From a virus, in IMG/VR virus record IMGVR_UViG_3300030090_007212, positions 1 to 64,000 of that record: a stretch of DNA of 64,000 bases; one strand, written 5' to 3'. Below, in pieces: positions 13,307 to 57,533 of this stretch; positions within the stretch are counted from its first letter, which is position 1, and each line of letters starts with the position of its first letter. The notes under the pieces are model-generated. The model was not told the DNA's origin and searched no databases. It was given only the letters and a program-made list of their open reading frames with translations. Position numbers and translations under genes: made by a program.

Positions 13307-14764
13307 CTATACTGTTATTGGTCGGTATCTAACACCATCTATTGTTTCCATCATAACACTATAAGGAGTAATATCCTTAGCGGATAGGATAGATTTCAAT
13401 ATGGATGGGCTAAATCCCGAAACCAAAGCAGTATTTAACTCATCTTTCTTCACTGGAAAATTATCACCTCGTGAGTTGATATTCCAGAAGATTATGCCAG
13501 GCATTTTATAACCTGCTTGTTCATAATCCTTACGGATCATTTCAATCGCTGACGGGTTAAAATCAGGGACTCTATCCCAGTCATTACCAGTCGCTTGATC
13601 AAATTCCATATCAGATAAAATGAGAATTTTTGTTGGCATCTTATCCTGTGGTACACTATTAGATTGCGCTTGTCTTAATAAAAGATTAAACGTTGCTTCT
13701 AAATTAGTATTCATTCCCCAATCACTAGATCTTAATTGAGATAATCTTTCTTTAAGAGTACCTTGAAGATATTGTAATTCAGGATTAGAAGAAAATGTTA
13801 GGAAACAATCTTTAAATGTACCTTCATTTCTTTCAGAGATATATAACCCTAAAGAAAGTGCTACATCCATACATTGTACATTGGAATTATTTCCAGCTGG
13901 ACATTGCATTGATCCTGACACATCTACCATAGGTAACACAATGTCATTATTATCTTCCATATAGTTAGGTAATGATTCCCATTGTTTTTGACAAACAATT
14001 TCTTCACCACCACAGTAAAGTGATTTAGTTATATCGTAAGGATATAAAGCCCCACTATTAACTTTCGTTTTACCTTCCATAAGGTCCTCCATGTATTTAC
14101 CATATCCTTCCTTATCATTTCTACTGAAAGTTTTTTGATACCTAGATGATGCAAGAGAAGGTAATTTAGAATAATCTATCTTATCCCACTCGTTGGCACA
14201 CATCTTAGTTTCAACGACATTGGTTAGGTTAACCAACAGTTTTCGGAGTTGTTTGGGTGTTACCCTTAACAACTTCCTTAATTTGTTAAATGCCTCACCT
14301 TTGCGTGGCATCCACTTGGCACATAAACCATCTTCGTTTTGTAAAGCGGTTTCGATTAGTTTAAGAGTTTCCTCTTCTAATTCCGTACCTAACAATACTA
14401 AAACATCATCCCATCTTCCATATTCAGGAATTAGAGAAATGTTTTTCTTAACTACTACCGGAGAAAGTTTAACCAAATGAGATAAAATATCTCTAAAGAT
14501 TTGTCTTTCACCAGCACCTCCTCGTACGTCTCTAGCCCAAAATAAAAGTTTTGTCGCTATTAATGAATTGTTAGAATAAGCTTTAGAAAATTTCTCAATT
14601 AACCTCACTTTATCCTTACCTCTCATTGCACCTACGCTGAAGAAAAAGTCCACACAATCATCTAAGGATGATTCGTTAGTAGACATTCCGTTTGCAGTCT
14701 GTGGAGTTTTATTTTCCATAGCTTCTTCCTGAATTTCTAAATAACGTGTGTATGAATTTTCCAT
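13307..14764 (-). CDS. Ro60/TROVE-like (DUF2828) protein with vWA domain
   Basis: 485 residues. The N-terminal two thirds are helical HEAT-like repeats (LLFWARDVRGGAGERQIFRDIL, then IPEYGRWDDVLVLL and AKWMPRKG), typical of the TROVE/DUF2828 RNA-binding ring. The C-terminal third is a von Willebrand A domain with an intact MIDAS, DVSGSM (DxSxS) near 288-293, followed by SDMEFDQA and a final YRPITV. Ro60-type proteins bind structured RNAs (Y RNAs) and take part in RNA quality control; phage DUF2828 members are uncharacterised. It has a canonical host-type promoter and stands next to a cluster of three tRNA genes. The stop is TAG, rare in this window. Confidence 0.85.
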   Translation of the reverse strand: MENSYTRYLEIQEEAMENKTPQTANGMSTNESSLDDCVDFFFSVGAMRGKDKVRLIEKFSKAYSNNSLIATKLLFWARDVRGGAGERQIFRDILSHLVKLSPVVVKKNISLIPEYGRWDDVLVLLGTELEEETLKLIETALQNEDGLCAKWMPRKGEAFNKLRKLLRVTPKQLRKLLVNLTNVVETKMCANEWDKIDYSKLPSLASSRYQKTFSRNDKEGYGKYMEDLMEGKTKVNSGALYPYDITKSLYCGGEEIVCQKQWESLPNYMEDNNDIVLPMVDVSGSMQCPAGNNSNVQCMDVALSLGLYISERNEGTFKDCFLTFSSNPELQYLQGTLKERLSQLRSSDWGMNTNLEATFNLLLRQAQSNSVPQDKMPTKILILSDMEFDQATGNDWDRVPDFNPSAIEMIRKDYEQAGYKMPGIIFWNINSRGDNFPVKKDELNTALVSGFSPSILKSILSAKDITPYSVMMETIDGVRYRPITV

Positions 14765-42027: not shown

Positions 42028-43308
42028 TTATACCACTATTTGGACATCCATGACAATAAAATCATTTTTCTTTTTAATGACTTGTCTATCAAATTTACCA
42101 ATTGCTAAAATATCTCCTGCGATATCAGTTATTGCAATTTCACTTATTCGAATATCATCACTCATCCCAATAGTTTCATTTTGCGACCTATAAAATTCAT
42201 TTCTACCAGCAATACAGAGTAAGCTTTGTAAAACTGTATTTTCTGTCGCATCTAAAGTTACATTATAAGTCCCTCCGGTGTAAAAATAAAGACCTAAACC
42301 ATTTGTTTCGGTATTTGTTTCTGTATCTCCCGTAAAATTAACCGCCACATTATCTACAATCGTAGGGTCAGTGAATGCTAAAATACCTTTTTCTAAATAA
42401 GCAATTCCTACTACTTTGTCTGCCACAATTCCAGTAGAAGCTACAGAATTTACATTAATTAATTGTTTATCATTAACACTAAAAGGTTTAAATGTATCAT
42501 ACCCTGTTGCCCAACTTCTAGTTGCATCATTATTTGGTCTTTGAATGTTATCAGTTACTAAATACGAAACATCAAATTGTGAACCAAATAGTGAAGTAGG
42601 TAAATTACTATTATCTCTAAATTGATTATCTAAATTAGATAGAGTAATATTTGTTCTTGGGAAAGTACTGTAAATATCATACGTAGTGATTGCAGTGATT
42701 GCACCACCACTAGTAAACCCAGTCCCCACTGGTAAGTTAACTCTTATACTTTTACCATCTATTAAATCCCCATATTCATTATTATCAATAACTGCTAATA
42801 ATACATTATTGGATGCGAAACCACTGAAAGCAGTATCAGACCATCCACCGTTGTTTGATGTGGTTCCTGTAAAGGTATTCATCCTAGTACTTATAATAGG
42901 AAGACTTAAACTTCTAAATAAATTAGTAAATGCATTAGTATTATCTCCTTTATTTATAGAAATAAATGTTAAATTACTTCCACTCACCACATTTTCACCT
43001 AATGTATCCATTGTGGATCTCACTTGAGATGAATTGGGTTCTACTGACTTAGTAGTTTGAGTTGTATTATTTACAAATACTTTACTACTAATAACTGCAT
43101 CATCCGCATTATTTTCTCCCCCTAGATTTCCTCCTGTTGTCGGAATAGTACCAGTAGGTAAACTTGCACTTGTCCTATAATTAGCATCAGAATCTCCTAC
43201 TACAAAATGTGAAAAAATTGTATTAGTTTCTTTTAACATTCTTTCCCTACCATTTCTAGTAAGTTTTGCTGTTATAGTTATTGTCGTTGCGGTATTTAAA
43301 AATCCCAT
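42028..43308 (-). CDS. Virion protein, paralogue of 43321-45522 (tail-fibre-head-like)
   Basis: 426 residues. The N-terminus TITAKLTRNGRERMLKETNTIFSHFVVGDSDANY and C-terminus ISEIAITDIAGDILAIGKFDRQV mirror those of the next gene upstream. This split pattern (a KLTxxGRExL...VxGDS start and an EVGI/EIAI...GK end) resembles P2-type tail-fibre N-terminal domains (DUF3751). Between them lies a Ser/Thr/Asn-rich beta region. Likely a baseplate or fibre-attachment protein. Last gene of the structural block. Confidence 0.65.
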   Translation of the reverse strand: MGFLNTATTITITAKLTRNGRERMLKETNTIFSHFVVGDSDANYRTSASLPTGTIPTTGGNLGGENNADDAVISSKVFVNNTTQTTKSVEPNSSQVRSTMDTLGENVVSGSNLTFISINKGDNTNAFTNLFRSLSLPIISTRMNTFTGTTSNNGGWSDTAFSGFASNNVLLAVIDNNEYGDLIDGKSIRVNLPVGTGFTSGGAITAITTYDIYSTFPRTNITLSNLDNQFRDNSNLPTSLFGSQFDVSYLVTDNIQRPNNDATRSWATGYDTFKPFSVNDKQLINVNSVASTGIVADKVVGIAYLEKGILAFTDPTIVDNVAVNFTGDTETNTETNGLGLYFYTGGTYNVTLDATENTVLQSLLCIAGRNEFYRSQNETIGMSDDIRISEIAITDIAGDILAIGKFDRQVIKKKNDFIVMDVQIVV

Positions 43309-43320
43309 TGTTTATATTTT

Positions 43321-45522
43321 TTAAAAATCTATAGTTAATTCTAATGAAGCAGTACTAGCGTCACCTATTTTTATTGGTCTAGATAATTTTCCTACCAAAA
43401 CTAAATTTTGTAAATCATCTAAAATACCTACTTCGGTTATAAATCTATCACAAGTATTATCAAATGAAGGGTTACTACTCGAACAAATAGTAGCACCATC
43501 TACATTAATATTAAATAATGTCTTATAAATTGTTGCACCTATATGTGTTCTTAAATTACCATAAAATAATCTTTCGTCTCCAAATGTCATTTTACCATAA
43601 AACTCTCCACTTGACATATCTAATGTTGTCCCTAAATTAAAAGTTGACGCACTAGCCGCATCGTAAATATCACCAGTTAATAAAAATCCTGTGTTTGAAG
43701 AACTTTGGTTTTCTAATAGTTCAGGGTCAATTGCACCTGCCCCACCATTTATACTAGCTGAGGTATAATCAATTAACCTCCATTGTGAAGAAACTGGTCG
43801 TGAATGAATGGTTGGATCAACAACTTGACATAATATATTGAATTTATCTGCAAAGAATCCAAATCCATCATAACCAGGCGCATCTGGTTTTCTCATATAA
43901 GGTAACTCCCCTACATTAGATAATCTAAATTGTACATCTTTATCACTATTAGTGTTATTATCAATAACAGTATATCTTTGACAAGGTAAAGTAGGAGTAG
44001 TGGTAGTCCCAGTATTTTCTAACCAATACGTTAAATACATTCTTTCTCCTGCACTCACTGATCCAGTACACAATCCATTAGTACAACTTACTAATTCTGC
44101 TGCCAAATCAGGTAAACTATAATTTCTATTAGATTTATATGACATCGCTGCCAATAATTCTTCATTTTCTATTACCACAATTTTTAAATCTGGAAATACT
44201 TTACCCACTACTAGAGGTAAGGTTGGTGTTACCGTCATACCACTAGCCTCTATTAAATCATAGTATTGAATAGTGTTATTATATGATAAAGTTTTTTGTA
44301 TGGTATCCGAAACAAATGTCATTCCCAATGTAGTACCACTACCAGTACCTTCGTTTCGTCTATGCCACATAACCGGTATATCTAAAGATAATAACTTATC
44401 ACTATCCCCATCTATTAGGAACATTTCACCATATGAATTAGAAATACAATTATTAGTATAGTGTATAATAGAAATACCTTTACTAAATGGATCAATATAA
44501 CTAGAAGATAAATTGTTACTACTTTGTGTTACAGTTAATACTTCATTCATCCCTAAAAATTGTTTCGAACCTGCGTATTGTTCAGAACCAAATAAAGTAT
44601 TTTCATGATAATTAGTAGGAGCTTCTTTCCATAACCCTGCTAAATTTTCAGTCCATACGTTATTCATATTCCATACTGGAATATTTTCTACACAAATATC
44701 ACAACTACTATCAAAAGATAATGTACCCGTATTCCAATATGCAGTAGTAGATGGTAATCCATAATATGTGTCTAATGGGTCATCACCACCAGGTAAAGTA
44801 TAATAAGTTATAATAGTTCCTGCATCACCACTTAAGGTAGGTAATTCCCTATCTACATTAATAGTGTCACCACTAATAGATACTATATTATAAACAGCAT
44901 TTATTGTTGCTGCAGTCATAGTATCACCCACAATATCTCCTAATGTACTATTGGATAATCTAAAAATTATATAATCATTAGCACTCGTAGCAGTTAAAGT
45001 AATTCCTGATAACACTCCTTGAATATAAGTAGAAGTGTCAATTGCCCCATTAAATGCACTTAAATCTATAGTACCAGTTTCTTTAATGAAGTCTGTACCA
45101 GTCATTGCAACTAATCCAGTTTCTACTGTAGATCCTGAAAAGAATCCTCTATCATCTGCCTCATTAGAAACTATACCTTTAATTAATTGAATATTACTTT
45201 GTTGATTTAAAGGGAATACAAAATTATTTCCCTGATCTAATAAAAAAGAAGAAGGAAATGGTTGATCATCCTTCGGTCTTAATACTTTTGAATAGATGTT
45301 TTTTATTATGTTTCCATCTGCTTCAGGAAAATAAAATTCTCCTGTCGCTGCACCTTCACTAGGGGCAAATTGTGCCCATCCTTTTACATAATCATAATCT
45401 ACTTCAGAATCCCCTAGAACATAGTTAGAAAACGTCAATTGACCTTTCGCCAATTGCTCTCTTCCTATATCCGTTAATTTAACTCTTATTAACGCCGTGC
45501 TTTGTTGATTTATATAACTCAT
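43321..45522 (-). CDS. Virion protein, tail-fibre-head-like, larger paralogue
   Basis: 733 residues. Same N- and C-terminal signatures as 42028-43308 (ALIRVKLTDIGREQLAKGQLTFSNYVLGDSEVDYDY; FITEVGILDDLQNLVLVGKLSRPI), with an insertion of about 300 residues more between them. The insertion is beta-rich with Cys pairs (CDICVENIP; CTNGLCTG). Probably forms hetero- or sequential assemblies with the shorter copy. A late-type motif is about 20 nt upstream. Confidence 0.65.
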   Translation of the reverse strand: MSYINQQSTALIRVKLTDIGREQLAKGQLTFSNYVLGDSEVDYDYVKGWAQFAPSEGAATGEFYFPEADGNIIKNIYSKVLRPKDDQPFPSSFLLDQGNNFVFPLNQQSNIQLIKGIVSNEADDRGFFSGSTVETGLVAMTGTDFIKETGTIDLSAFNGAIDTSTYIQGVLSGITLTATSANDYIIFRLSNSTLGDIVGDTMTAATINAVYNIVSISGDTINVDRELPTLSGDAGTIITYYTLPGGDDPLDTYYGLPSTTAYWNTGTLSFDSSCDICVENIPVWNMNNVWTENLAGLWKEAPTNYHENTLFGSEQYAGSKQFLGMNEVLTVTQSSNNLSSSYIDPFSKGISIIHYTNNCISNSYGEMFLIDGDSDKLLSLDIPVMWHRRNEGTGSGTTLGMTFVSDTIQKTLSYNNTIQYYDLIEASGMTVTPTLPLVVGKVFPDLKIVVIENEELLAAMSYKSNRNYSLPDLAAELVSCTNGLCTGSVSAGERMYLTYWLENTGTTTTPTLPCQRYTVIDNNTNSDKDVQFRLSNVGELPYMRKPDAPGYDGFGFFADKFNILCQVVDPTIHSRPVSSQWRLIDYTSASINGGAGAIDPELLENQSSSNTGFLLTGDIYDAASASTFNLGTTLDMSSGEFYGKMTFGDERLFYGNLRTHIGATIYKTLFNINVDGATICSSSNPSFDNTCDRFITEVGILDDLQNLVLVGKLSRPIKIGDASTASLELTIDF

Positions 45523-45567: not shown

Positions 45568-48480
45568 TTAGTAACTTTCCCCAATATTTGTCGCTATTTC
45601 TACTTTTACAACATCACTATAAGCATAACTATAAATTATTTCTCCCATTATTGGTTTATAAAATTTTTCATTTTTTATTCTATAAAGAAAAATGTCTCCT
45701 GCTTGAGCATTTTCTAAATATGTTTCTAGACTATAACTTTTATTCCCTATCACATAAGGTGTAGTAAAACTATAGACTATATTTTCAAAATCAGGATCAT
45801 CTTCTGTAGTAAATTCTACAACGAATCTTCCTTCATCATTTATTGGTTCAGATAATATCCTCCACGCAATAGTTGGTCTATTAGTGTAGATATATCCGAT
45901 TACTGAAGCACTAGGTGTATAAAATGCTTCTAAAATATCCCCTATTTGTAAATCCCCCTCTATAATTAAACGAGATGCGTCACTAGTAGACCTATAATAC
46001 TCAATATTTTCCGCTAATACATTACCATTAAGTGATAATAACACGTCACTGGCAGGTGCATTCTCTAACCAATATTCATACTTACTATGTGTAGTATTAT
46101 AAAAAACTCTATTAGTAAAAGGATCATTATTTGTACCACCACTAATAATTGGGTCAGTTATGGTATAAATATCCCCATAAAGGTCACCCTCTTGTCCATC
46201 TCTAACATATGCATATGTTAACATTTGATCTGCTAAAATTGGCTCAATTAATAATTTTATTCCCCTCGTTAACCCACTAGTGGTTGCACTATATTCAATA
46301 TTTTTAGCTAATACATTACCATTATAACTTACAATAGGGTCAGACAATCCTTGAATAGGGTAATCTGTTTGCCCTTCATTAGTATAAACTGAATTAACAA
46401 TTAAATTGTTAATACTTACTGGAACCGGAACCGTCGTATTTTCAAAAAATGGTACATCTGCTTCATATAAGTTGATAAAGTACCAATCCGTTTCTGGTGA
46501 ATATAAACCATATTCTGTCCCTCTTTTATAGGTATCTATACTATATTTTCTCACCCCTAATTGTTTGGAAATTAATGTATTTATATTGTAACCCCAATAA
46601 CCTTTAATAATAAACTCACCTTCACCTATATAAACTAAAGGAATAGTTGCTAAATTAGTAGTATCCGCACTTAATACATTATAATCAAATGCGAAATTAA
46701 ATATGGATGAATTGGTGAATTCTTTTTGGGTTTGATCATACTTATAAACTTCCGCACTAAAACCTAATTTTTTCGCATCTATAATATCATTAACATTATT
46801 AACTACTACATCAAAATTAAATGCCACTCTACCTCGCGGGTTAATATAAACATATCTATCACAAGACAATGCTTTAGTAGTAATAACATTAGGTAACCCC
46901 CACATAGAAGTTACACCTGTAATAGTAGAAGAGGTTAAAGAAAAATCATCTATATGTAAATTACACTGAACCCCTAACCCATTAGGTCGATGTATTACAT
47001 GTAAAGAAGTATTATTTAATTCTGCAATATATATTTTTTCATCCGGACCCATTTGTAATGCACCTAAACTCGCACCTGTAATAGAAGGTAATTCTATCAT
47101 ATTATCCCTTATTTCTTCCACCGTACTATAAGAAAGATCAAACTGATATAATTTTTCACCAGCACCATCAGAAATATAAAATTTAGAAGAATCAGATGAA
47201 AACTCCAACCCATAAGGTCCGACATCATAGGTAATACCAGTAAGTGTCATCACATTACTTACTCTTCCAGTCTCGTCATTAAAATCCCCAATATCTATTA
47301 TATCTTCATCATATAAAGCACTAATAATTTTTTCTCCGTTAGGAGAAGTTTTCATATACCCCCTAGCTGTATTATGTGTGGAACCCGTATCTGAAATAAT
47401 CGGTCCACTTAATCCCACAGAGTTTAATTTATAACTATAATATCTACTATCTCCACTCGTATGTGTTACAACCCAATACGCATCTTCGCTACCATGATTA
47501 CAACCAGTTACTTTTTCACTAACCGCACTATTAATTAACTTAATGTTTTTAGTTTCTACTTCTCCATTACCATCATCTAACTCCATATTAACTATAGAAT
47601 ATTCAAACCCATTAGGGGAACCGTTGAAATCGGTAGTAAATACATAATATTTGTTACTATCAGGTTGAGGTACGATTAATGCTGATTGTGTGGACGTTCC
47701 AGAACTACTTAAACCTGTTCCGTTAATCATTACTGTATGTCCGCTGGTATAAATTGTTTCACCATTAGTGTAAAATAATAACTCTCCTTCACTATTACTA
47801 ATAGTTGCACACCCTTCTTGTGTTTGCATTGCCCCACTAAAAATAGTTGGTGTAGCGCCTGTTTTTATAGGATTAAAGTTAATTCCCGCATTATTACCAA
47901 ACATCCAATTATAGTTCAATCTATCGTAAGTGTATCCTGTATAAGTAACCGGACCACATAAAGTGTCTGCAGTAGTAGCTGGTATCTTACGTGTACCCCT
48001 AACGGAAAATTGAGGGAAATCAAATCCATCTATATCTGACCTTTCAATGTAAGGATATAATTCCTGATTACTTACAGGTACATTACCAAAATTCCTTTTT
48101 TCACTTCTTTCTCCAGGTGCTTCAGACATTTTACCATTAGTAATATATTTCATCTTTGTGAAAGGTAAGATAGGAATAGGTAATGAAGGTTCACTTCTTT
48201 CTCCTTCCATAAAAATAGTGACGGTAGGAGTGGTTTGTACTGTTTTAAAAATACTATTTCCCCATGTTACTGGTGCAGTCATTTGATAAATTGTAGGAAC
48301 ATTCGAAAGATTAGTAGGTAAAAATTTATTACCCCCCACATCCATATAAGTAGTTAATGAAGATGCCTCATAACTAGCCAATATACTACTACTATCGGGG
48401 TTATTAATTAACCCAACTATAGGAGTAGAGTATACTGCCTCTACACTTACATTTTCTATTTTCCCACTACTTTTCTTCAT
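45568..48480 (-). CDS. Virion protein with Bacteroidetes-type beta-propeller
   Basis: 970 residues. Residues about 190-530 are a propeller typical of Bacteroidetes secreted surface proteins: NWMFGNNAGINFNP, then TQEGCATISNSEGELLFYTNGETIY, GTGLSSSGTSTQSALIVPQPDSNKYYVFTTD and DAYWVVTH. The rest is beta-rich. Two tandem modules near 705-855 share NGNVLAxNIEYxxST. It likely forms part of a tail or fibre that binds the host surface. The propeller was probably captured from a host gene. Late-type motif 5 nt before the ATG. Confidence 0.75.
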   Translation of the reverse strand: MKKSSGKIENVSVEAVYSTPIVGLINNPDSSSILASYEASSLTTYMDVGGNKFLPTNLSNVPTIYQMTAPVTWGNSIFKTVQTTPTVTIFMEGERSEPSLPIPILPFTKMKYITNGKMSEAPGERSEKRNFGNVPVSNQELYPYIERSDIDGFDFPQFSVRGTRKIPATTADTLCGPVTYTGYTYDRLNYNWMFGNNAGINFNPIKTGATPTIFSGAMQTQEGCATISNSEGELLFYTNGETIYTSGHTVMINGTGLSSSGTSTQSALIVPQPDSNKYYVFTTDFNGSPNGFEYSIVNMELDDGNGEVETKNIKLINSAVSEKVTGCNHGSEDAYWVVTHTSGDSRYYSYKLNSVGLSGPIISDTGSTHNTARGYMKTSPNGEKIISALYDEDIIDIGDFNDETGRVSNVMTLTGITYDVGPYGLEFSSDSSKFYISDGAGEKLYQFDLSYSTVEEIRDNMIELPSITGASLGALQMGPDEKIYIAELNNTSLHVIHRPNGLGVQCNLHIDDFSLTSSTITGVTSMWGLPNVITTKALSCDRYVYINPRGRVAFNFDVVVNNVNDIIDAKKLGFSAEVYKYDQTQKEFTNSSIFNFAFDYNVLSADTTNLATIPLVYIGEGEFIIKGYWGYNINTLISKQLGVRKYSIDTYKRGTEYGLYSPETDWYFINLYEADVPFFENTTVPVPVSINNLIVNSVYTNEGQTDYPIQGLSDPIVSYNGNVLAKNIEYSATTSGLTRGIKLLIEPILADQMLTYAYVRDGQEGDLYGDIYTITDPIISGGTNNDPFTNRVFYNTTHSKYEYWLENAPASDVLLSLNGNVLAENIEYYRSTSDASRLIIEGDLQIGDILEAFYTPSASVIGYIYTNRPTIAWRILSEPINDEGRFVVEFTTEDDPDFENIVYSFTTPYVIGNKSYSLETYLENAQAGDIFLYRIKNEKFYKPIMGEIIYSYAYSDVVKVEIATNIGESY
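45900..46380 (-). repeat. Internal duplicated module of the propeller protein
   Basis: Two copies of a roughly 75-residue module (SYNGNVLAKNIEYSATTSG; SLNGNVLAENIEYYRSTSD) lie about 300 nt apart, with near-identical DNA at GCTAATACATTACCATT. Confidence 0.6.
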
Positions 48481-48494: not shown

Positions 48495-51400
48495 TTAAAC
48501 ATTACAATCATGTATTAATTCACTATTATAAAAATACCCTCCTGGTTCCCATTCTGGATCCCCAATAACTGTAACACTTCCCTCAAACTCATTACTATTA
48601 TTAATATGAGTTATGAAAACAGTATCATAATTACTATATTGAGTACGTGATTTTCTTTTACATTTCTCGTAACTATCTTTTAATCCAGCAATATAATTTC
48701 TTTGTCTTTCATATTCTAATGTACCTCTAACATATTGATCATCTAAATCTTTTTCTGCTTTAGTTAAGGTATCCCCTATTTGTGTACACTTAGTAAAAAG
48801 TCCATCAAAAGTTTCTTCTTGTTCTTTAGATGCTGCTTGAAGTTCATTTAATTCACTATTTAGTTTATTATATTCTTCTTTCATCGCTTCTAAAGATTCA
48901 ATTTGTTGTTTTAGTTGTTCACTAACAGATTCTATACACTCTTCTCTAGCACCAAAATCTTGTGGGTCATTAGGATCAGGATCTAAATGCTCACAAGCAC
49001 ATAATCTATCTTTTAAAACATCAATTAATTTTTCTACTTGATATATCTCATTCTGTAATTTAGTTAATTCTTTAATAATATCTTTAATTGTCGCATTTTC
49101 AGGATATAAAGATTGTTGTATGACTTGGACATCTACTGTTTCTGAACCGATATCACTACTTGTTATTCCTGATAATGGACATTCTACACTATCATTGAAA
49201 TTTAATGTGTATTTACGATAAGCGTATTTGTTTTGATCGAATATAGTATTTCTATAAATCTTACCTGAATTATCACACCCTTCCCATATAGTAGTTGCCG
49301 GAACTACCTGTTCTAATAAATCTAACCAATAATCCCCTATTTTATCCATAAATTGGAATAGGCTATTATACGTTAAATTTCCACCTAAACCTACTCCACA
49401 ATTACTTGCATTTAAATATAATTGATAGAATAATTGTAATAGTGGGTAATTGGATATAACTTGACGACTTTTAGCATCTATGAGATTACTTAACACCATA
49501 TCATCAAATACCTCTTTTACTTTTATTTCTGAAGGGGCTACCTCTAAATAATCTAGAGGGTTTATACATACATTAGTAGTTCCTGTTACGACACATATAT
49601 CCTCACATATGGTAGTGGTTCCGGTTACTGTAACCGTACTACTAGTGGTGGTTGCAGTAATATCATAACTTAATCCTGATGTAGTAATTTTTACACATGT
49701 AGGGCTTCCATAACAAGTACCATTAGTAAAGGTATATCCTGCAGGACAACTATACCCTATTGGGCTACCACCACTAGTACCGAATTCAAATAAATAAGTT
49801 GCCCCTACCACATCACTTCTATAATCTTTAGTAGAGAATAAAGTAACTGCATCTAATTCTACTGTTGTAGTCATTCCGGTTAATTGATTAGTAGTGGCGG
49901 AGTATATTTCCGCACCAAATCCTGCTTCATCTCCATCATTTCTACCTTCCATTGCGATAACATGTTCACCAGACGGTAAGTCTATTTCAAATACTTTCCA
50001 TACACTTAAATCAGAATTATCGTTACCACTTAACCCTGTAGAGGTAAATAATAAATCCCCATTTAGGTAAAATCTACTTCTATTATCTGCACCTATACCA
50101 ATAGTATATGTCCCTGGATCATTTATTTGTATACAATAACTAAATCCTATCCAACTACCAATAGGTGGGTTAGGATTAGGTGCGCCTAATGTTCCCCATA
50201 TACTACAATTATTTAATCTTCCATTAAGTGTTGATGATTGAGATACCCATAAAGTATTAAGTGGAGAGTTAACAGAGTTAACATTCGCCTCTACAGGCAC
50301 TGGTACCCCACTATTATTTAATAATTGAGTACTACTACCTTGTAAATTATAGGGTAAATCTGCAGTGTTTAAATCTAATGAGTACCATCTTGTACCATTA
50401 ACTGAATAACCAACTTGTTTACTACCCGTATATGCAGTTACATTAGTTACATTTAAAGTTGCACCTGTAGTCTCAATTAATTCACACCCATCTTCTGCAG
50501 GGGTGAGAGATAATGGTGCCACACAATATCCTGCAGTGTATCCTGTACTCGTTCCTGTTACTACTACATTAAACTGAGTAGTGGCAGTATAACATTCACC
50601 CCCAGGAATTGTTTGTTGTAAATTCTTAACTCCACTATATTCACAATCACCTTCACAATTATTTATTTCCATCCAAGTACACGCACTTACAGAGTTATTC
50701 CAAACATATTCTTTATTAACCCCTAAACCATTAATACCATTTGCAGTAATTAGATTATTAAGTGTTTGACAACACTCACTATCAAAAGAAGTAGTTTGGT
50801 TAAAGGTTTGTGCGGTTATACCACTAAAAATTTCTTCATTTACCCCACCAGTATAAGGTGTAGTTGTGTCATATAAATAAGTTTCCCAAAAAGAAATTGT
50901 TCCATCTTCATTTTCAGTAATAACCCCAAATAAGTTATCTAATTGGTTATTATCCCCAATGATTAGGTTACTTGACCCACAATTATTTTCTTCAATTTCA
51001 AATCCTGAAAGTGATCCACCTTTATTAAGTAAATCACTATAAGATGCATTAATAGATTCACTATAATTTGCAGTTAAAGAATAATAATCATTTTTGAGTT
51101 CAGTAACTTGTTGTTGTAGAATAGTAGTATAAGTGTCACAACTAAAAGTTAATCCTGCCGGTGTAGTGCCTGACAATGGTAACGAATAATCCACCAATGT
51201 ACCACCACTTAATAATTCACCTTCAAAGACTATCGTATCACCACTATCACAACTAGTTGGGCATTCATCACAATTAATATTTTTCCAAAAATTATAGACA
51301 TCACATTCTATAGCATTTGCTGGATCGATACTAAATGTTGCAGATTTAGTATTCATTAATAAATCTGAATGATGTAAATCATACTCAGTATATCTATATT

Positions 51401-54400
51401 CTAATTCTTGCCATAATCTATTTTGTGGAGTAACTAATTTAGTAATATCATAGTTATTTGTGGATCCACTATTACATTCCCCATCAGGATAAATAGTAAC
51501 TTCTTCTAACCCTTCGGTTGTATAAACCCAAGATTTTCTATTATCTATTACACAACTTAATTCAGGTATTAAACAATTATTTAATGATAAGTTTCGTTGG
51601 GTATCACAATCGCTTATATCTACTCGTATGTTATCTACTAATAAACATACTGCACATTCATAATTTTCTATTTCTATACCAATTTTAAATCTTTTATCTG
51701 GGTATAATGTCCTTAAATCTTTACACACACAATCAGGTAAATTAAAAGTAAGAGTTGACCAATTAGGGGTAAATAACTCTGTAGAAGGATTATCTCCTTG
51801 TGCAATTATTGAATCTAAAATTCCTTGTTCAACTAATGAGATATCATATTGAGTCCCATCAAAGTAAACACCACTATAAGTTGCGGTTGGATCCCACTCC
51901 CATATAGGGTTTACTACATTGGTATATGGTAAATTAGTTAAACCATTATTATCTACAAATAATTTAAATTTTAATTTAATATCGTCAATATAACTTATAT
52001 AATTTCCTCCTGAACTTATATTAATACTTTGTAAATTACTCTGTATAGAGTTATACCAAGTATCATAACAATTTTGTGCTAAAGTAGTAAGTGCTGCAAT
52101 ATTAGCATTAATACCATTTATTGAGGTATTTACACTATTTAAAGTGGTTAAACAACATTTTTTATTGGTTTGTTGTCTAGTTTCATATTCTTCTTTTCTA
52201 CCAGTATAAACATCTAAATCATTCTCCGCTTCATTAACCTTTTCACTAGTTTGTTTTGCAATTTCTTCTTTTTGGGTTGTTTTTTCATTAAGTTGTGCAA
52301 CTAATTCTTCTTTCTTTCTATTTAATTGGTTGATTTTAGCATCATTTTGTTTATTCTGTATTTCTAAAGATATTTTATCTTGGTCGGTTAATTCTAATCG
52401 CCCACTATCATCCGTAACTTCATTAGGGGTTTTACCTAATAAAGCCGCAGTAGTATCTATAGTATTAACCACATCATTTTTCTGAACCGCAGAACCCTGT
52501 AACTCCTCATTATTAGTTACCACCCCATTAGGTCCATCAGTTAAATTATTTATTTGTTTTTGAGTATTTTGTATTTCTTTTTCGTATAAATCAATTTTAA
52601 CTTGATTATTTTGGTTTTTTGCCTCAATTAATTTTTCATTAAACTCATTATTTTCTCTACATTTATTTAATAGTAAAGAATAAGTTTTTTTATCTTCTTC
52701 AATAGAAGCAGTTTTTTGTTTTACACAATCATTATAGGCAGTATTAAATTCTTCTACCCCACTTTGTCTACGTTGATTAGTTTGTGTTTTACAAAAAGAA
52801 TCAACATCAAAATTGTTTAATTGTTTAAGTGTTTCCTCATAAACACTACAATCAGTAGTTGGAGAGGTTTCAGTTAAAGATTGTTTAATTGCAGAATTAT
52901 CATTTTCTTTAGTTTGTATTTGAGTATCTAAATCATCCACTTTACGATTTAAATCTTCTATCTCTCTATCTATAGTTTCTTCTTCTTTTCTACCCTCTTC
53001 TTTAATAGTTTCTTTATTAGTTTCAGTTTCCACTATTAATTCATCCGTTCCTCTTACTAATCCACCATATCCTTCAGATTGATTTACACAATTTTCTAAT
53101 TCTAATTTAATATGATTAAATTGGTTAAGTAAATTTTGATAATTATAAATTAAATTAGAATATATACCACAATCTACAGATAAAGGTAATGCACACACAT
53201 TCTGAGTAGTTATATAATCACTAGGATCAATAAGTTGACCATTATCATCTACACAACAGTTGATATTAGGGGGCATTGAATATTGAATACATTCTGCTGC
53301 GAATATTGCATTTAACCCTCCCTGAAATTTACTATATTGTTGTTGGTAAAGTTGCATTTCCGGAGTAAACATATTAATGAATTGAGGTGTATTACCATTT
53401 ACTAAATTCATATAATCAATATCCGTTTGGTTTGCCCAGCTATCATTAATTTCATCCCAAAAATCTCCATTTGTTGGGACAATCGTACCTCCCGCAGCAT
53501 TACAACATTCTACATTAGGTTCTTGTTGAGCAACATCACTCTGCCATACTTGTAATTCTTCTGTTCTGTTAGGTTTATCACCATAATTTTGTTCCAGTAA
53601 AGAACTTTCTGTTTGACTATTAGTAAATGTTAGGAAATTTTTACACCAAATACACTCTAAAGTAGCATCATTTATTATTGCTGCTTCACATCCTATATTT
53701 TGGGACGCACATTGTATTAAATTAGCTGCATTATATTTTAACATATAATCAAAAGTAATATCTACCGAACATTCACATTCACTATCGTTAGGTAATTGGA
53801 AACCTAAATCATTTTCACTACCAAATAATACAGTCACATTACTTACTTCTTCACAATTTATCCTATTAGGAACTACTACTGCAGTGGTGGTGGCGTTATT
53901 ATTAGGGTTATAAGGTAAACTACCTTCATTGGCACCTGGTTGGATTCTTACTAATTGACTATTATTAGTATCCACCTTAAATGTATCGTACTCATATCCT
54001 TTTTGTTGCCCTATTAAATTATACAACTCTCCACCTGATTCTTTAGGTGTGTTCCAATCTATAATAATTTTATCTCCTTTATTGTCGGTAGTAGAAAAAG
54101 CAACTCTTCCATAATTATCGATTCTTTCATCTTCCCATTTAGTTGGGTCATTAACATCTGGATCTTCAAATACAGAATAAAACTCTGAATTAACTGTCTT
54201 AGGATTTGCCTTACTATTAGGTTTTACTATACCAGCTCTTTTTACTGCATCTCCTGAAGTAGATATTTTTGCCACTTCCTGAATAGGTGCATTACGATTA
54301 CTATAAGGTATATATTTATCATACCCTTCTTCTAATGAAGGTTTAATTCCTAGTTCTTCACGTAATTGTTCGTTATTCTTTTGATTTTCTAAATTAATAA

Positions 54401-57400
54401 TTTCTTCCTTCTTCTGTAGAATTTCTAATTGTGCTTTTTGATTTTCTTTAGAAGTTAAATCATTATTTTTAGTAGTCTCCTCTAATTCATATAATTCAGT
54501 TTGTTGTGCGGCGATAGCTTCTTCCATTTCTTCTACCCTACTTGGTAACTCTATCAATGATCCACCATCAATTTGTGAATCTACACATACCACATAACTA
54601 ATTTTTTCACCAGTTGCAGTAATTTCCTGCACAATTTTACTTTCATACCCATGCCATGCACAACATTCGGGTCTACTCACTGTAGTAGTATTTTTACAAG
54701 TAGTTCTAGTAAAACATTTAAAAAATTGTTCACTTCCATTATTTTGTTGTGCCCATTCTGCTACTGCCTGTGGATTTGTGTTAACATCTGCACCCACAAC
54801 TCTACTACAATATTCATTATCTTGATATTGGTAACAGCTTCCTCCATCATCACATACTTGATAACAACTATCTTCTACTAAGAATATATTATTAGGCATA
54901 TTATTACCCACCATTTCAAATACTACTGTACCATCTCTTTTAATTTCTATTGGATTACCATCACATGGTGCTTGAACCGCACAATATTCTATAATTTCCC
55001 CTCCTTCATTATAACTAATATATTTACCTTGTTGTCCATCTATTTCTTGAGATTCACAACAACATGCATATCTATCACCACTTAATTTTATCCCTGTCGC
55101 TTCATCAAATAATACTAAAAACCCTTCTTCATAATCTACTCTTATACCATCACAACAATTAATAGGGTCTTCGATTTCATCATCCTCATTACTTATATCT
55201 TCTACTATACAAATTTCTAATGTTTGATTGATATCACAATTTTCCGTAGCAATTTCTCTATTATAGTTATTACTTGCTTGTATATAATTGTTTTTAACCT
55301 TAATAAATTCAGGAGAGTATTGTAAATAAGGTTGAACCTTAATCAATTCTAAAAATGCATTATATTCATCTTCCGCAATATCTCTAATTTCCTCTAATGT
55401 AGATTTACCATTATTTTGTACTGGGGTTTCTATAATATTATATGTTATATCTAAACAATCATCTATATTCTGATATTGATTAGTGTTAACGTTATAGGTA
55501 ACCTCTTCAGTAAAAATAGAAGCGTCATTGGCAACCCCATTAAAAATACCATAATTATAATTTATAAAATGATTTACTTTAGAAATTGTTTCAGTAATTG
55601 CAAAAGTAGTTTCCCCCGTAAAGTTAGGGATATAACATTGCATAAAATAATTCAAATATTCATTACCACCATCATATTTACCCACATGTGGATTATTACC
55701 TCTTAAATTAGTTACTCCCGCATTTGGACCAAAAGTTTCTTTATACCATCCTCCTGCTTTTTGGAAATACATTTCTGTATAAGGGTTTTCTACAATACCT
55801 GGCAATTGGTTTCCTGTCAATGTAGTACCTGTTTCTAATCCCGCAATAAAATCCACTATTACTAAATCACCATTAACTGGAGGTAAAGGAAAACCATCAT
55901 CATCATAAGGTATGTGAGTAGTATCTACTTTACCAGTATAAAGAAGAAGTAATTGTTTAATTTTATCCATATCTAATGGTTTATCAACAATTACAATATA
56001 TTCGTTGAAGTTAACTAATGCTTCAGGTGCACCTATAAACCTAAATAAAAATTCTACTGCTTTTCTACTACCTTTACTCTTCCATAACCACGCAATATTA
56101 AGGATTAATCTTCTATATAATTCCGTATCGACCTCACTATTTGACATTGATGCGGATGCACCACTAAAACTTCCTAACCCAGGAACCGGAACAACTGCCC
56201 CACCTAATGTGTTGGAGGTTACAAACGTTACGGGATCCAATCCTAACATACTAACTAAATCCTTAACTAAGGCATCTGGTACATTATTCTTTTTATCGTA
56301 AGTTACTACATGGGCAAATTTAATCCCATTTATATATTTTTTGATCTCATCAAAACTAACCCCATAAATTCTTAATAACTTAGTTGCTTTTTCACCATCT
56401 AACACTAAATTATTACCATCCCCTCTTGGTACTGTATCAAAACTACTTATGACTTCCGCAGTATATTTTCTAATAATTAAGTCAGTATTGTTTTCATCAT
56501 AATTTTCACCTACTTGTGAAAGAGTATCCAAATATGAAAGATAATAACTATCAAAGAAATTAAGGTTATAACCATCATCTAATATAGGAAAAGTTAATAC
56601 ATCCTTAGTTGTCACTATTACCCCTTCATCTGTAATTTTAGGGGATATTATAATACTAGTATAGATAGGGTAGGTATTTCTATCTAATAAATTCTGTTGT
56701 AAATCATTTAAAGAAGTAAAAAAACTTTCTATTTCTATCTCATTAGGTTTAATAAAAAATGGTATAGAACCTACAAATGGAGTTACTAATGGTGTAAATT
56801 GTGGTATAATAATTCCTGTTAACTCAGGAAAAGGATTTCCTTCTACTACTAAATCAATAGTTGAATTGGTAGTCTGAGTGGCAGGTGTTATATCTTTTAT
56901 TTTTTTAATTATACCATTATGTTCAATAACATAAGATTTATAATTAACTGTGAAATTACGTAAAGGATTTTCTTCTTCTTCCGTACCAGTAATTCCTTCA
57001 TCTAATGTATATTTTATTGAGTAGGGATTACTAAAATAACTTGTACTGATAGTAAATGTAGATTCATCATTAGTAATATCATACACATAGTTAGTTATAT
57101 TATTTCCTGTAATAGATCCTACTTTATTATCCACATAAATGGCGGCTGGCCAATTTTCTTGTATTTCTTCTAAGGAAGCCCTAATTAATTCAGACGCTGA
57201 CCCATACCATATATAACTTAATGGGTTAGTTAAATCTAAATTAAGACTTGTTTTTATATTTTTTTCTATAACTAACTCTTGATCATTAGAAACTACATCA
57301 TCTAATGTATAAAGAGGAGATTGTGTTCCTTGACGAAAAACAACATCAGGTTTAGGGTCTAAATTTGTATCAATAGAAAAATTACCGTTGGTAAATAAAG

Positions 57401-57533
57401 GCGTTCCTCCCTCACTAGTTAGTTGAAAACCTACTAAATCTGGACTAAAATCTCTATATTCAATATTATCATTGAAAAAGACTCTTTTAGCGTATCCCGC
57501 AATTTTAATTCTATCCTTTTTATTATTCGCCAT
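48495..57533 (-). CDS. Giant virion protein, 3012 residues (baseplate or tail component)
   Basis: 3012 residues, no stop in 9 kb. Near 480-500, RRLILNIAWLWKSKGSRKAVEFLFRFIGAPEAL resembles the folded core of tail proteins like P2 gpI. From about 800 to 2250 there are repeated double-Cys modules (CCDG, CCCES, ECCAWHG, ECCNAAG, NCCVDDNG, KKCCLTT, ECCQTL) separated by coiled coils (about 1000-1060, 1500-1790). About 2410-2545 looks like a PA14-type sugar-binding beta-sandwich (IGIGADNRSRFYLNGDLLF, WKVFEIDLPSGEHVIAMEG). The C-terminus is coiled coil (2825-2950). Fits a long baseplate or fibre protein; domain calls are by eye. Confidence 0.75.
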   Translation of the reverse strand: MANNKKDRIKIAGYAKRVFFNDNIEYRDFSPDLVGFQLTSEGGTPLFTNGNFSIDTNLDPKPDVVFRQGTQSPLYTLDDVVSNDQELVIEKNIKTSLNLDLTNPLSYIWYGSASELIRASLEEIQENWPAAIYVDNKVGSITGNNITNYVYDITNDESTFTISTSYFSNPYSIKYTLDEGITGTEEEENPLRNFTVNYKSYVIEHNGIIKKIKDITPATQTTNSTIDLVVEGNPFPELTGIIIPQFTPLVTPFVGSIPFFIKPNEIEIESFFTSLNDLQQNLLDRNTYPIYTSIIISPKITDEGVIVTTKDVLTFPILDDGYNLNFFDSYYLSYLDTLSQVGENYDENNTDLIIRKYTAEVISSFDTVPRGDGNNLVLDGEKATKLLRIYGVSFDEIKKYINGIKFAHVVTYDKKNNVPDALVKDLVSMLGLDPVTFVTSNTLGGAVVPVPGLGSFSGASASMSNSEVDTELYRRLILNIAWLWKSKGSRKAVEFLFRFIGAPEALVNFNEYIVIVDKPLDMDKIKQLLLLYTGKVDTTHIPYDDDGFPLPPVNGDLVIVDFIAGLETGTTLTGNQLPGIVENPYTEMYFQKAGGWYKETFGPNAGVTNLRGNNPHVGKYDGGNEYLNYFMQCYIPNFTGETTFAITETISKVNHFINYNYGIFNGVANDASIFTEEVTYNVNTNQYQNIDDCLDITYNIIETPVQNNGKSTLEEIRDIAEDEYNAFLELIKVQPYLQYSPEFIKVKNNYIQASNNYNREIATENCDINQTLEICIVEDISNEDDEIEDPINCCDGIRVDYEEGFLVLFDEATGIKLSGDRYACCCESQEIDGQQGKYISYNEGGEIIEYCAVQAPCDGNPIEIKRDGTVVFEMVGNNMPNNIFLVEDSCYQVCDDGGSCYQYQDNEYCSRVVGADVNTNPQAVAEWAQQNNGSEQFFKCFTRTTCKNTTTVSRPECCAWHGYESKIVQEITATGEKISYVVCVDSQIDGGSLIELPSRVEEMEEAIAAQQTELYELEETTKNNDLTSKENQKAQLEILQKKEEIINLENQKNNEQLREELGIKPSLEEGYDKYIPYSNRNAPIQEVAKISTSGDAVKRAGIVKPNSKANPKTVNSEFYSVFEDPDVNDPTKWEDERIDNYGRVAFSTTDNKGDKIIIDWNTPKESGGELYNLIGQQKGYEYDTFKVDTNNSQLVRIQPGANEGSLPYNPNNNATTTAVVVPNRINCEEVSNVTVLFGSENDLGFQLPNDSECECSVDITFDYMLKYNAANLIQCASQNIGCEAAIINDATLECIWCKNFLTFTNSQTESSLLEQNYGDKPNRTEELQVWQSDVAQQEPNVECCNAAGGTIVPTNGDFWDEINDSWANQTDIDYMNLVNGNTPQFINMFTPEMQLYQQQYSKFQGGLNAIFAAECIQYSMPPNINCCVDDNGQLIDPSDYITTQNVCALPLSVDCGIYSNLIYNYQNLLNQFNHIKLELENCVNQSEGYGGLVRGTDELIVETETNKETIKEEGRKEEETIDREIEDLNRKVDDLDTQIQTKENDNSAIKQSLTETSPTTDCSVYEETLKQLNNFDVDSFCKTQTNQRRQSGVEEFNTAYNDCVKQKTASIEEDKKTYSLLLNKCRENNEFNEKLIEAKNQNNQVKIDLYEKEIQNTQKQINNLTDGPNGVVTNNEELQGSAVQKNDVVNTIDTTAALLGKTPNEVTDDSGRLELTDQDKISLEIQNKQNDAKINQLNRKKEELVAQLNEKTTQKEEIAKQTSEKVNEAENDLDVYTGRKEEYETRQQTNKKCCLTTLNSVNTSINGINANIAALTTLAQNCYDTWYNSIQSNLQSINISSGGNYISYIDDIKLKFKLFVDNNGLTNLPYTNVVNPIWEWDPTATYSGVYFDGTQYDISLVEQGILDSIIAQGDNPSTELFTPNWSTLTFNLPDCVCKDLRTLYPDKRFKIGIEIENYECAVCLLVDNIRVDISDCDTQRNLSLNNCLIPELSCVIDNRKSWVYTTEGLEEVTIYPDGECNSGSTNNYDITKLVTPQNRLWQELEYRYTEYDLHHSDLLMNTKSATFSIDPANAIECDVYNFWKNINCDECPTSCDSGDTIVFEGELLSGGTLVDYSLPLSGTTPAGLTFSCDTYTTILQQQVTELKNDYYSLTANYSESINASYSDLLNKGGSLSGFEIEENNCGSSNLIIGDNNQLDNLFGVITENEDGTISFWETYLYDTTTPYTGGVNEEIFSGITAQTFNQTTSFDSECCQTLNNLITANGINGLGVNKEYVWNNSVSACTWMEINNCEGDCEYSGVKNLQQTIPGGECYTATTQFNVVVTGTSTGYTAGYCVAPLSLTPAEDGCELIETTGATLNVTNVTAYTGSKQVGYSVNGTRWYSLDLNTADLPYNLQGSSTQLLNNSGVPVPVEANVNSVNSPLNTLWVSQSSTLNGRLNNCSIWGTLGAPNPNPPIGSWIGFSYCIQINDPGTYTIGIGADNRSRFYLNGDLLFTSTGLSGNDNSDLSVWKVFEIDLPSGEHVIAMEGRNDGDEAGFGAEIYSATTNQLTGMTTTVELDAVTLFSTKDYRSDVVGATYLFEFGTSGGSPIGYSCPAGYTFTNGTCYGSPTCVKITTSGLSYDITATTTSSTVTVTGTTTICEDICVVTGTTNVCINPLDYLEVAPSEIKVKEVFDDMVLSNLIDAKSRQVISNYPLLQLFYQLYLNASNCGVGLGGNLTYNSLFQFMDKIGDYWLDLLEQVVPATTIWEGCDNSGKIYRNTIFDQNKYAYRKYTLNFNDSVECPLSGITSSDIGSETVDVQVIQQSLYPENATIKDIIKELTKLQNEIYQVEKLIDVLKDRLCACEHLDPDPNDPQDFGAREECIESVSEQLKQQIESLEAMKEEYNKLNSELNELQAASKEQEETFDGLFTKCTQIGDTLTKAEKDLDDQYVRGTLEYERQRNYIAGLKDSYEKCKRKSRTQYSNYDTVFITHINNSNEFEGSVTVIGDPEWEPGGYFYNSELIHDCNV

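Follow-up and report, generated by a model that had tools for sequence, protein, structure and literature searches.

The 970-aa protein encoded at 45568..48480 (- strand) of the 64,000-nucleotide stretch of viral DNA analysed here (the window) is a mosaic tail/baseplate-type protein, in which a beta-propeller of the kind carried by Bacteroidota T9SS type B surface proteins lies between an N-terminal arm and a phage-only C-terminal domain. That a tail-type protein captured this host-phylum propeller is well supported. The best reading is a single capture, in which a surface domain of the host phylum entered an exchangeable slot in a peripheral tail protein, and the best explanation as a whole is a captured attachment head on a peripheral baseplate/tail-fibre-type protein of a T4-like phage (probability of roughly 55%).

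Domain architecture of the 970-aa protein

The gene is an uninterrupted ORF of 970 codons (ORF list and translation), and all of its parts are given here on the - strand. The N-terminal arm (residues 1-136; 48073..48480) is the least conserved part. It is followed by an anchor (residues 137-176, SNQELYPYIERSDIDGFDFPQFSVRGTRKIPATTADTLCG; 47953..48072) which gives a weak profile match to the corresponding anchor of propeller-less orthologues (RN..NVNMSSDICIFGAPLFTMSGASKIDC). The Bacteroidota T9SS-B-type propeller spans residues ~190-535 (46876..47913) and carries the motifs NWMFGNNAGINFN...EGCATISNSEGELLFYTNG...GLSSSGTSTQSALIVPQPDSNKYYVFT at residues ~191-283. A sequence-only reading had placed the propeller at residues about 190-530 and quoted an NWxFGN-type consensus; the domain was confirmed, with its end extended to ~535, and the consensus was borne out almost letter for letter (exceptions were ISN for ISD and small differences in spacing). 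The C-terminal domain (residues 541-970; 45571..46860) was found in ~63 IMG/VR loci, some of which lack the propeller, and harbours two NGNVLA.NIEY repeat units (residues ~712-757 and ~811-854; 46210..46347 and 45919..46050 respectively).

Searches of Pfam, PHROGs, NCBIfam and, with the single sequence, the PDB gave no match to the 970-aa ORF above cut-off; accordingly, no BACON domain was found in the Pfam search. A cleavable Sec signal peptide is absent, as judged by eye rather than with a predictor (a hydrophobic core is missing from MKKSSGKIENVSVEAVYSTPIVG). The T9SS type B sorting domain (TIGR04131/PF13585) was matched neither in the ORF nor anywhere in the 138.5-kb record from which the window comes.

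The propeller and its relatives in Bacteroidota

Sequence comparison shows the propeller to be homologous to the one at the N-terminus of T9SS type B surface proteins from Bacteroidota. Tblastn matched it to five Bacteroidota plasmids (E 2e-23 to 6e-33, 87-95% of the query covered), some of the matched genes being annotated as gliding motility-associated C-terminal domain proteins, while no phage record was matched by the propeller segment below E 1. Among genome contigs, 394 relatives were found; the best 80 of these 394 were nearly all from Bacteroidota, and the top identity was 44-45% over ~320 aa. With the single window sequence as query, the propeller was present in 41 of 198 Bacteroidota genomes (best E 1.6e-74, 47% identity). 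Chance resemblance was rejected on E values down to 1e-74. In the cellular copies the propeller is placed directly after a signal-peptide-like stretch. The claim that a Bacteroidota surface-protein propeller sits inside a phage protein is thus upheld by the plasmid, contig and genome matches, and these searches returned abundant cellular relatives rather than phage relatives only. By contrast, the profile of the C-terminal domain gave a single marginal match (E 8e-4) against the same 198 genomes, which to judge by this search hold no convincing relative of it.

The predicted fold agrees with this assignment. AlphaFold2 run on an 88-sequence alignment returned a propeller (pLDDT 91.7, pTM 0.91), and every PDB match of the 88-sequence profile was a propeller; solved phage propellers were absent from these 28 matches. 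A full-length model from six sequences reached a pLDDT of 35, too low for domain arrangement. Weak similarity in sequence and fold to 6-phosphogluconolactonase and YVTN propellers raises the idea that the propeller is enzymatic; a glycan-cleaving or lactonase-type activity, for instance, would thin the surface layer at the baseplate. We consider this very unlikely, as no family match rose above any cut-off and the resemblance is no more specific than between any two propellers (TM-score normalised by query length not above 0.53 in the PDB matches listed).

Phage genome and conserved gene neighbourhood

The source record is an IMG/VR virus of 138,502 bases. It encodes SbcC, SbcD, primase, RuvC, DNA polymerase and helicase, together with a tail sheath (phrog_23, E 1.9e-63), a tail tube and gp25- and gp6-type baseplate wedge subunits, a gene content that identifies it as a T4-like contractile-tail phage. 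The large terminase (PF03237) was matched in the related clade records G019 and G023 and not in this record, which may be incomplete. The wedge genes lie upstream of the 970-aa ORF, which stands in a row with giant tail-type ORFs, and the phage structural block described in the sequence-only reading therefore holds. A giant protein of 3012 aa (48495..57533), the conserved upstream neighbour in the clade, ends 14 bases before the 970-aa ORF, and two conserved downstream neighbours of 733 aa (43321..45522) and 426 aa (42028..43308) follow closely; all are on the - strand. The order giant protein, 970-aa protein, 733 aa, 426 aa, RuvC and primase was kept in all phages examined, propeller-bearing and propeller-less alike. 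This gene order suggests that the protein is located in the virion. Cellular contamination was rejected (phage scaffold, conserved phage synteny, 28 loci), as was a host protein misplaced in the phage (neither signal peptide nor sorting domain).

The two downstream neighbours have an N-terminal 44-aa motif in common (43%), which is likely an attachment or assembly module. For neither the C-terminal domain nor the 733-aa neighbour was a relative found in a cultured phage. Elsewhere in the window, a 485-aa ORF (13307-14764) matched phrog_850 (RNA-binding protein, E 4.9e-150). Outside the window, four ORFs of G000 (93463-94104, 94260-96485, 97905-99221 and 99292-99615) have in common a short N-terminal leader, MKK.IKLKESDL..I....L.EQ, that is also present on ORFs in L205 and L207 and resembles the T4-type capsid-targeting peptide of packaged internal proteins. 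The G000 ORFs 91861-93453 and 97905-99221 have a 178-aa stretch in common (66% identity), probably through duplication.

An exchangeable domain slot

The C-terminal domain was found in 63 viral loci, 20 with the propeller, 42 without it and one not resolved. The 42 propeller-less orthologues have either 458-501 aa and no large insert, or 632-921 aa and another insert. In sister phages the slot holds nothing, a ~150-aa insert or a PA14-like module, and the inserts begin right after the anchor RN...SSD..F..P...SG..K(I/L).C and stop before the C-terminal domain. L141 (492 aa, empty) and L138 (904 aa, filled) are close relatives on the flanking-gene tree, and their flanking sequence is nearly identical on both sides of the slot. 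The propeller clade has a similar anchor, SN...RSD..FD.PQF..RG.RKIP...C, directly before the propeller, and the match between the two anchor profiles is weak (hhalign E 0.0014, probability 17.6%). The propeller therefore occupies an exchangeable domain slot. Such a slot, empty or filled with other modules in sister phages, points to a captured attachment module.

The filler in L138, L143, L145 and L168 is homologous (33-47%) to residues 2322-2616 of the 3012-aa neighbour of the window protein (49686..50570, - strand). This PA14-like module appears to move between neighbouring genes. The sole PA14 match in Pfam was in L201, which has the propeller, and was below cut-off (E 9e-4). The PA14-like head of a sister phage was found in none of the 198 Bacteroidota genomes. 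Modules of the PA14 kind occur in adhesins as well as in other proteins (title of a reference in PMC7468147). A second insertion site is indicated by the orthologue at L106:10001-13159, with ~80 extra residues in the N-terminal arm.

Fixation and constraint in the phage clade

With the C-terminal 431 aa as query, six IMG/VR contigs were retrieved, each with a relative of the whole protein; alignment searches raised the whole-protein loci to 18 and then to at least 28 IMG/VR loci with the phage-type propeller (61-72% identity). None of 50,697 phage records contained it. A tree of four flanking genes requires a single change for propeller presence (support 100) and repeated changes for the other head classes, and the propeller was never lost within its clade, throughout which it is fixed. 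The capture that had been proposed stands as regards a host-phylum domain in a phage protein, but not as a lone capture, since the propeller is fixed in a whole clade and sits in an exchangeable slot.

The propeller is also the most constrained part of the protein and is under purifying selection. Across the clade it is 60-71% identical to that of the window protein, whereas the C-terminal domain reaches 40-56% and the N-terminal arm (172 aa) 30-42%. Median dN/dS was 0.047 in the propeller, 0.114 in the C-terminal domain and 0.108 in the N-terminal arm, over 17 closely related pairs that are not independent of each other. The rapid change often seen in receptor-binding tips was not observed. 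Strong conservation argues against a fast receptor arms race, and a conserved ligand or a structural role would each explain it.

The second of these corresponds to a possible, though clearly less probable, alternative, in which the propeller is a structural platform in the baseplate that holds neighbouring tail proteins without receptor contact. It is consistent with the propeller being the most conserved and most strongly selected part, never lost in the clade, and with the phi11 and PhiKZ propellers, which can sit in baseplates (PMC4901313). However, the same slot is empty in some sister phages, so the scaffold needs no insert, and a domain that trades places with PA14-like modules is more typically a binding head. 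An attachment head remains our best guess for the propeller, favoured by position, slot pattern and precedents from other phages. The N-terminal arm and the 430-residue C-terminal domain would form a phage scaffold with the domain-insertion slot between them. The ancestor of the clade would have put a Bacteroidota T9SS type B propeller into this slot, where it would have stayed fixed ever since. The propeller would most likely be a surface-exposed attachment head. Its ligand would be a conserved constituent of the host envelope, either a surface glycan or a protein associated with adhesins, and its binding would bring the baseplate to the cell.

Origin of the propeller

In the propeller tree, rooted at midpoint, the virion sequences group together (100/100) at the end of a long stem, and none of the cellular sequences was resolved as their sister. 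The tree proposed for the direction of transfer thus established a single virion lineage, but did not resolve its placement among the cellular sequences. Transfer from host to phage is likely; it is the simpler reading because the domain is spread over a phylum and, in its tail role, confined to one phage clade. The host phylum is probably Bacteroidota. The Bacteroidota promoter motif was not enriched in the phage (5 matches vs. 3.5 expected, not significant).

A second phage group with secreted propellers

Sixteen further viral loci encode the propeller; identity is 33-41%, or 50% when taken over a fragment. Most of the proteins read have a signal-peptide-like N-terminus, and many are of ~460 aa with a PKD-type tail. 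The T9SS type B sorting domain was present in 10 of the 16 records, compared to none of the 10 searched records of the scaffold clade; in L203, L205 and L207 it sits in the second gene after the propeller. The C-terminal scaffold domain was absent from the 15 second-group records searched, and a terminase was found in three of the group. In the propeller tree these propellers group apart from the others with good support, together with two MAG sequences, which may be viral as well. Type B sorting and phage were not linked by any paper in the literature searched.

A three-gene cassette was observed at L207:5923-8465, and also in L203 and L205. It consists of a signal-peptide propeller with PKD, a second secreted ORF and a secreted sorting-domain ORF (TIGR04131, 47-55 bits, cut-off 35), and it is in effect a surface protein of the phage divided among genes; its first and second ORFs have similar ends (...YTN/D). 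Related cassettes occur in L217 and other loci of L203-L220, on large phage contigs.

This group does show that phages encode secreted propellers, and the window protein might likewise be a non-virion protein released in or on the infected cell. We regard this as the least probable reading: the protein has neither a signal peptide (by eye) nor a sorting domain, is embedded in a conserved tail gene order and has phage scaffold domains on either side of the propeller.

The same propeller family in two separate phage groups is also compatible with mimicry, in which the propeller would copy the T9SS-B/gliding adhesin domain and the virion would dock on its host partners (the export/gliding machinery) or compete with them. 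The direct homology to proteins annotated as gliding motility-associated fits this, as do the Flavobacterium phage receptors proposed to belong to the gliding machinery (PMC7345892), but the phage protein lacks the sorting domain, which is what the secretion system recognises. Receptor mimicry, suggested in the sequence-only reading, gained no specific support, and we consider it unlikely. A broader proposal is likewise improbable: phages of gliding Bacteroidota would have taken the T9SS-B adhesin propeller at least twice, once into a baseplate protein and once into a secreted surface cassette, to engage the host adhesin/gliding apparatus. The virion would dock on the partners of the gliding adhesin, and the secreted version would remodel or block the surface of the infected cell.

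Comparison with known systems

This is a well-delimited case of a host-phylum surface domain turned into a phage tail part, with empty, alternative and filled versions of the slot in a conserved gene order. The series lets one ask directly how phages gain new attachment modules. The ligand of the propeller could reveal the target of a common, uncharacterised Bacteroidota T9SS-B propeller and, through it, a receptor for phages of gliding bacteria.

Compared to the Bacteroidota T9SS type B proteins (TIGR04131/CHU_C), the phage protein has the propeller in common, at about 26-47% identity over most of its length. The cellular proteins have a signal-peptide-like start and the annotated ones end in a T9SS sorting domain; the phage protein lacks both features, and phage-only domains take their place. 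Among phages, phi11 Gp45, PRD1 P2 and PhiKZ gp131C likewise bear a beta-propeller on an attachment or baseplate-periphery protein, and the propeller of the phi11 receptor-binding protein is a platform with a cavity that could hold GlcNAc (PMC4901313). The gene of the window protein is in a tail/baseplate block, as for those receptor-binding proteins, and host binding by its propeller is proposed. However, the phi11, PRD1 and PhiKZ propellers were not among the sequence matches of the propeller profile, and PMC4901313 describes no origin from a surface protein of the host phylum.

Phage genes akin to T9SS surface proteins, including a PA14 protein, were reported earlier as T9SS type A cargo of a cryophage (PMC7468147), a finding relevant to the second group. 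That cargo is predicted to be secreted and has type A sorting domains; those of the second group are of type B, and the window protein lacks one altogether. The crAss-like phages have taken BACON domains into tail-associated proteins (PMC6949934), which likewise places a Bacteroidetes-associated surface domain, moved between lineages, in the phage tail. BACON domains there are Ig-like tandem repeats in other phages, whereas the window protein has a single propeller in a defined slot with empty or differently filled versions. The recruitment of host surface domains into phage tail proteins is thus already known, and this propeller adds another form of it.
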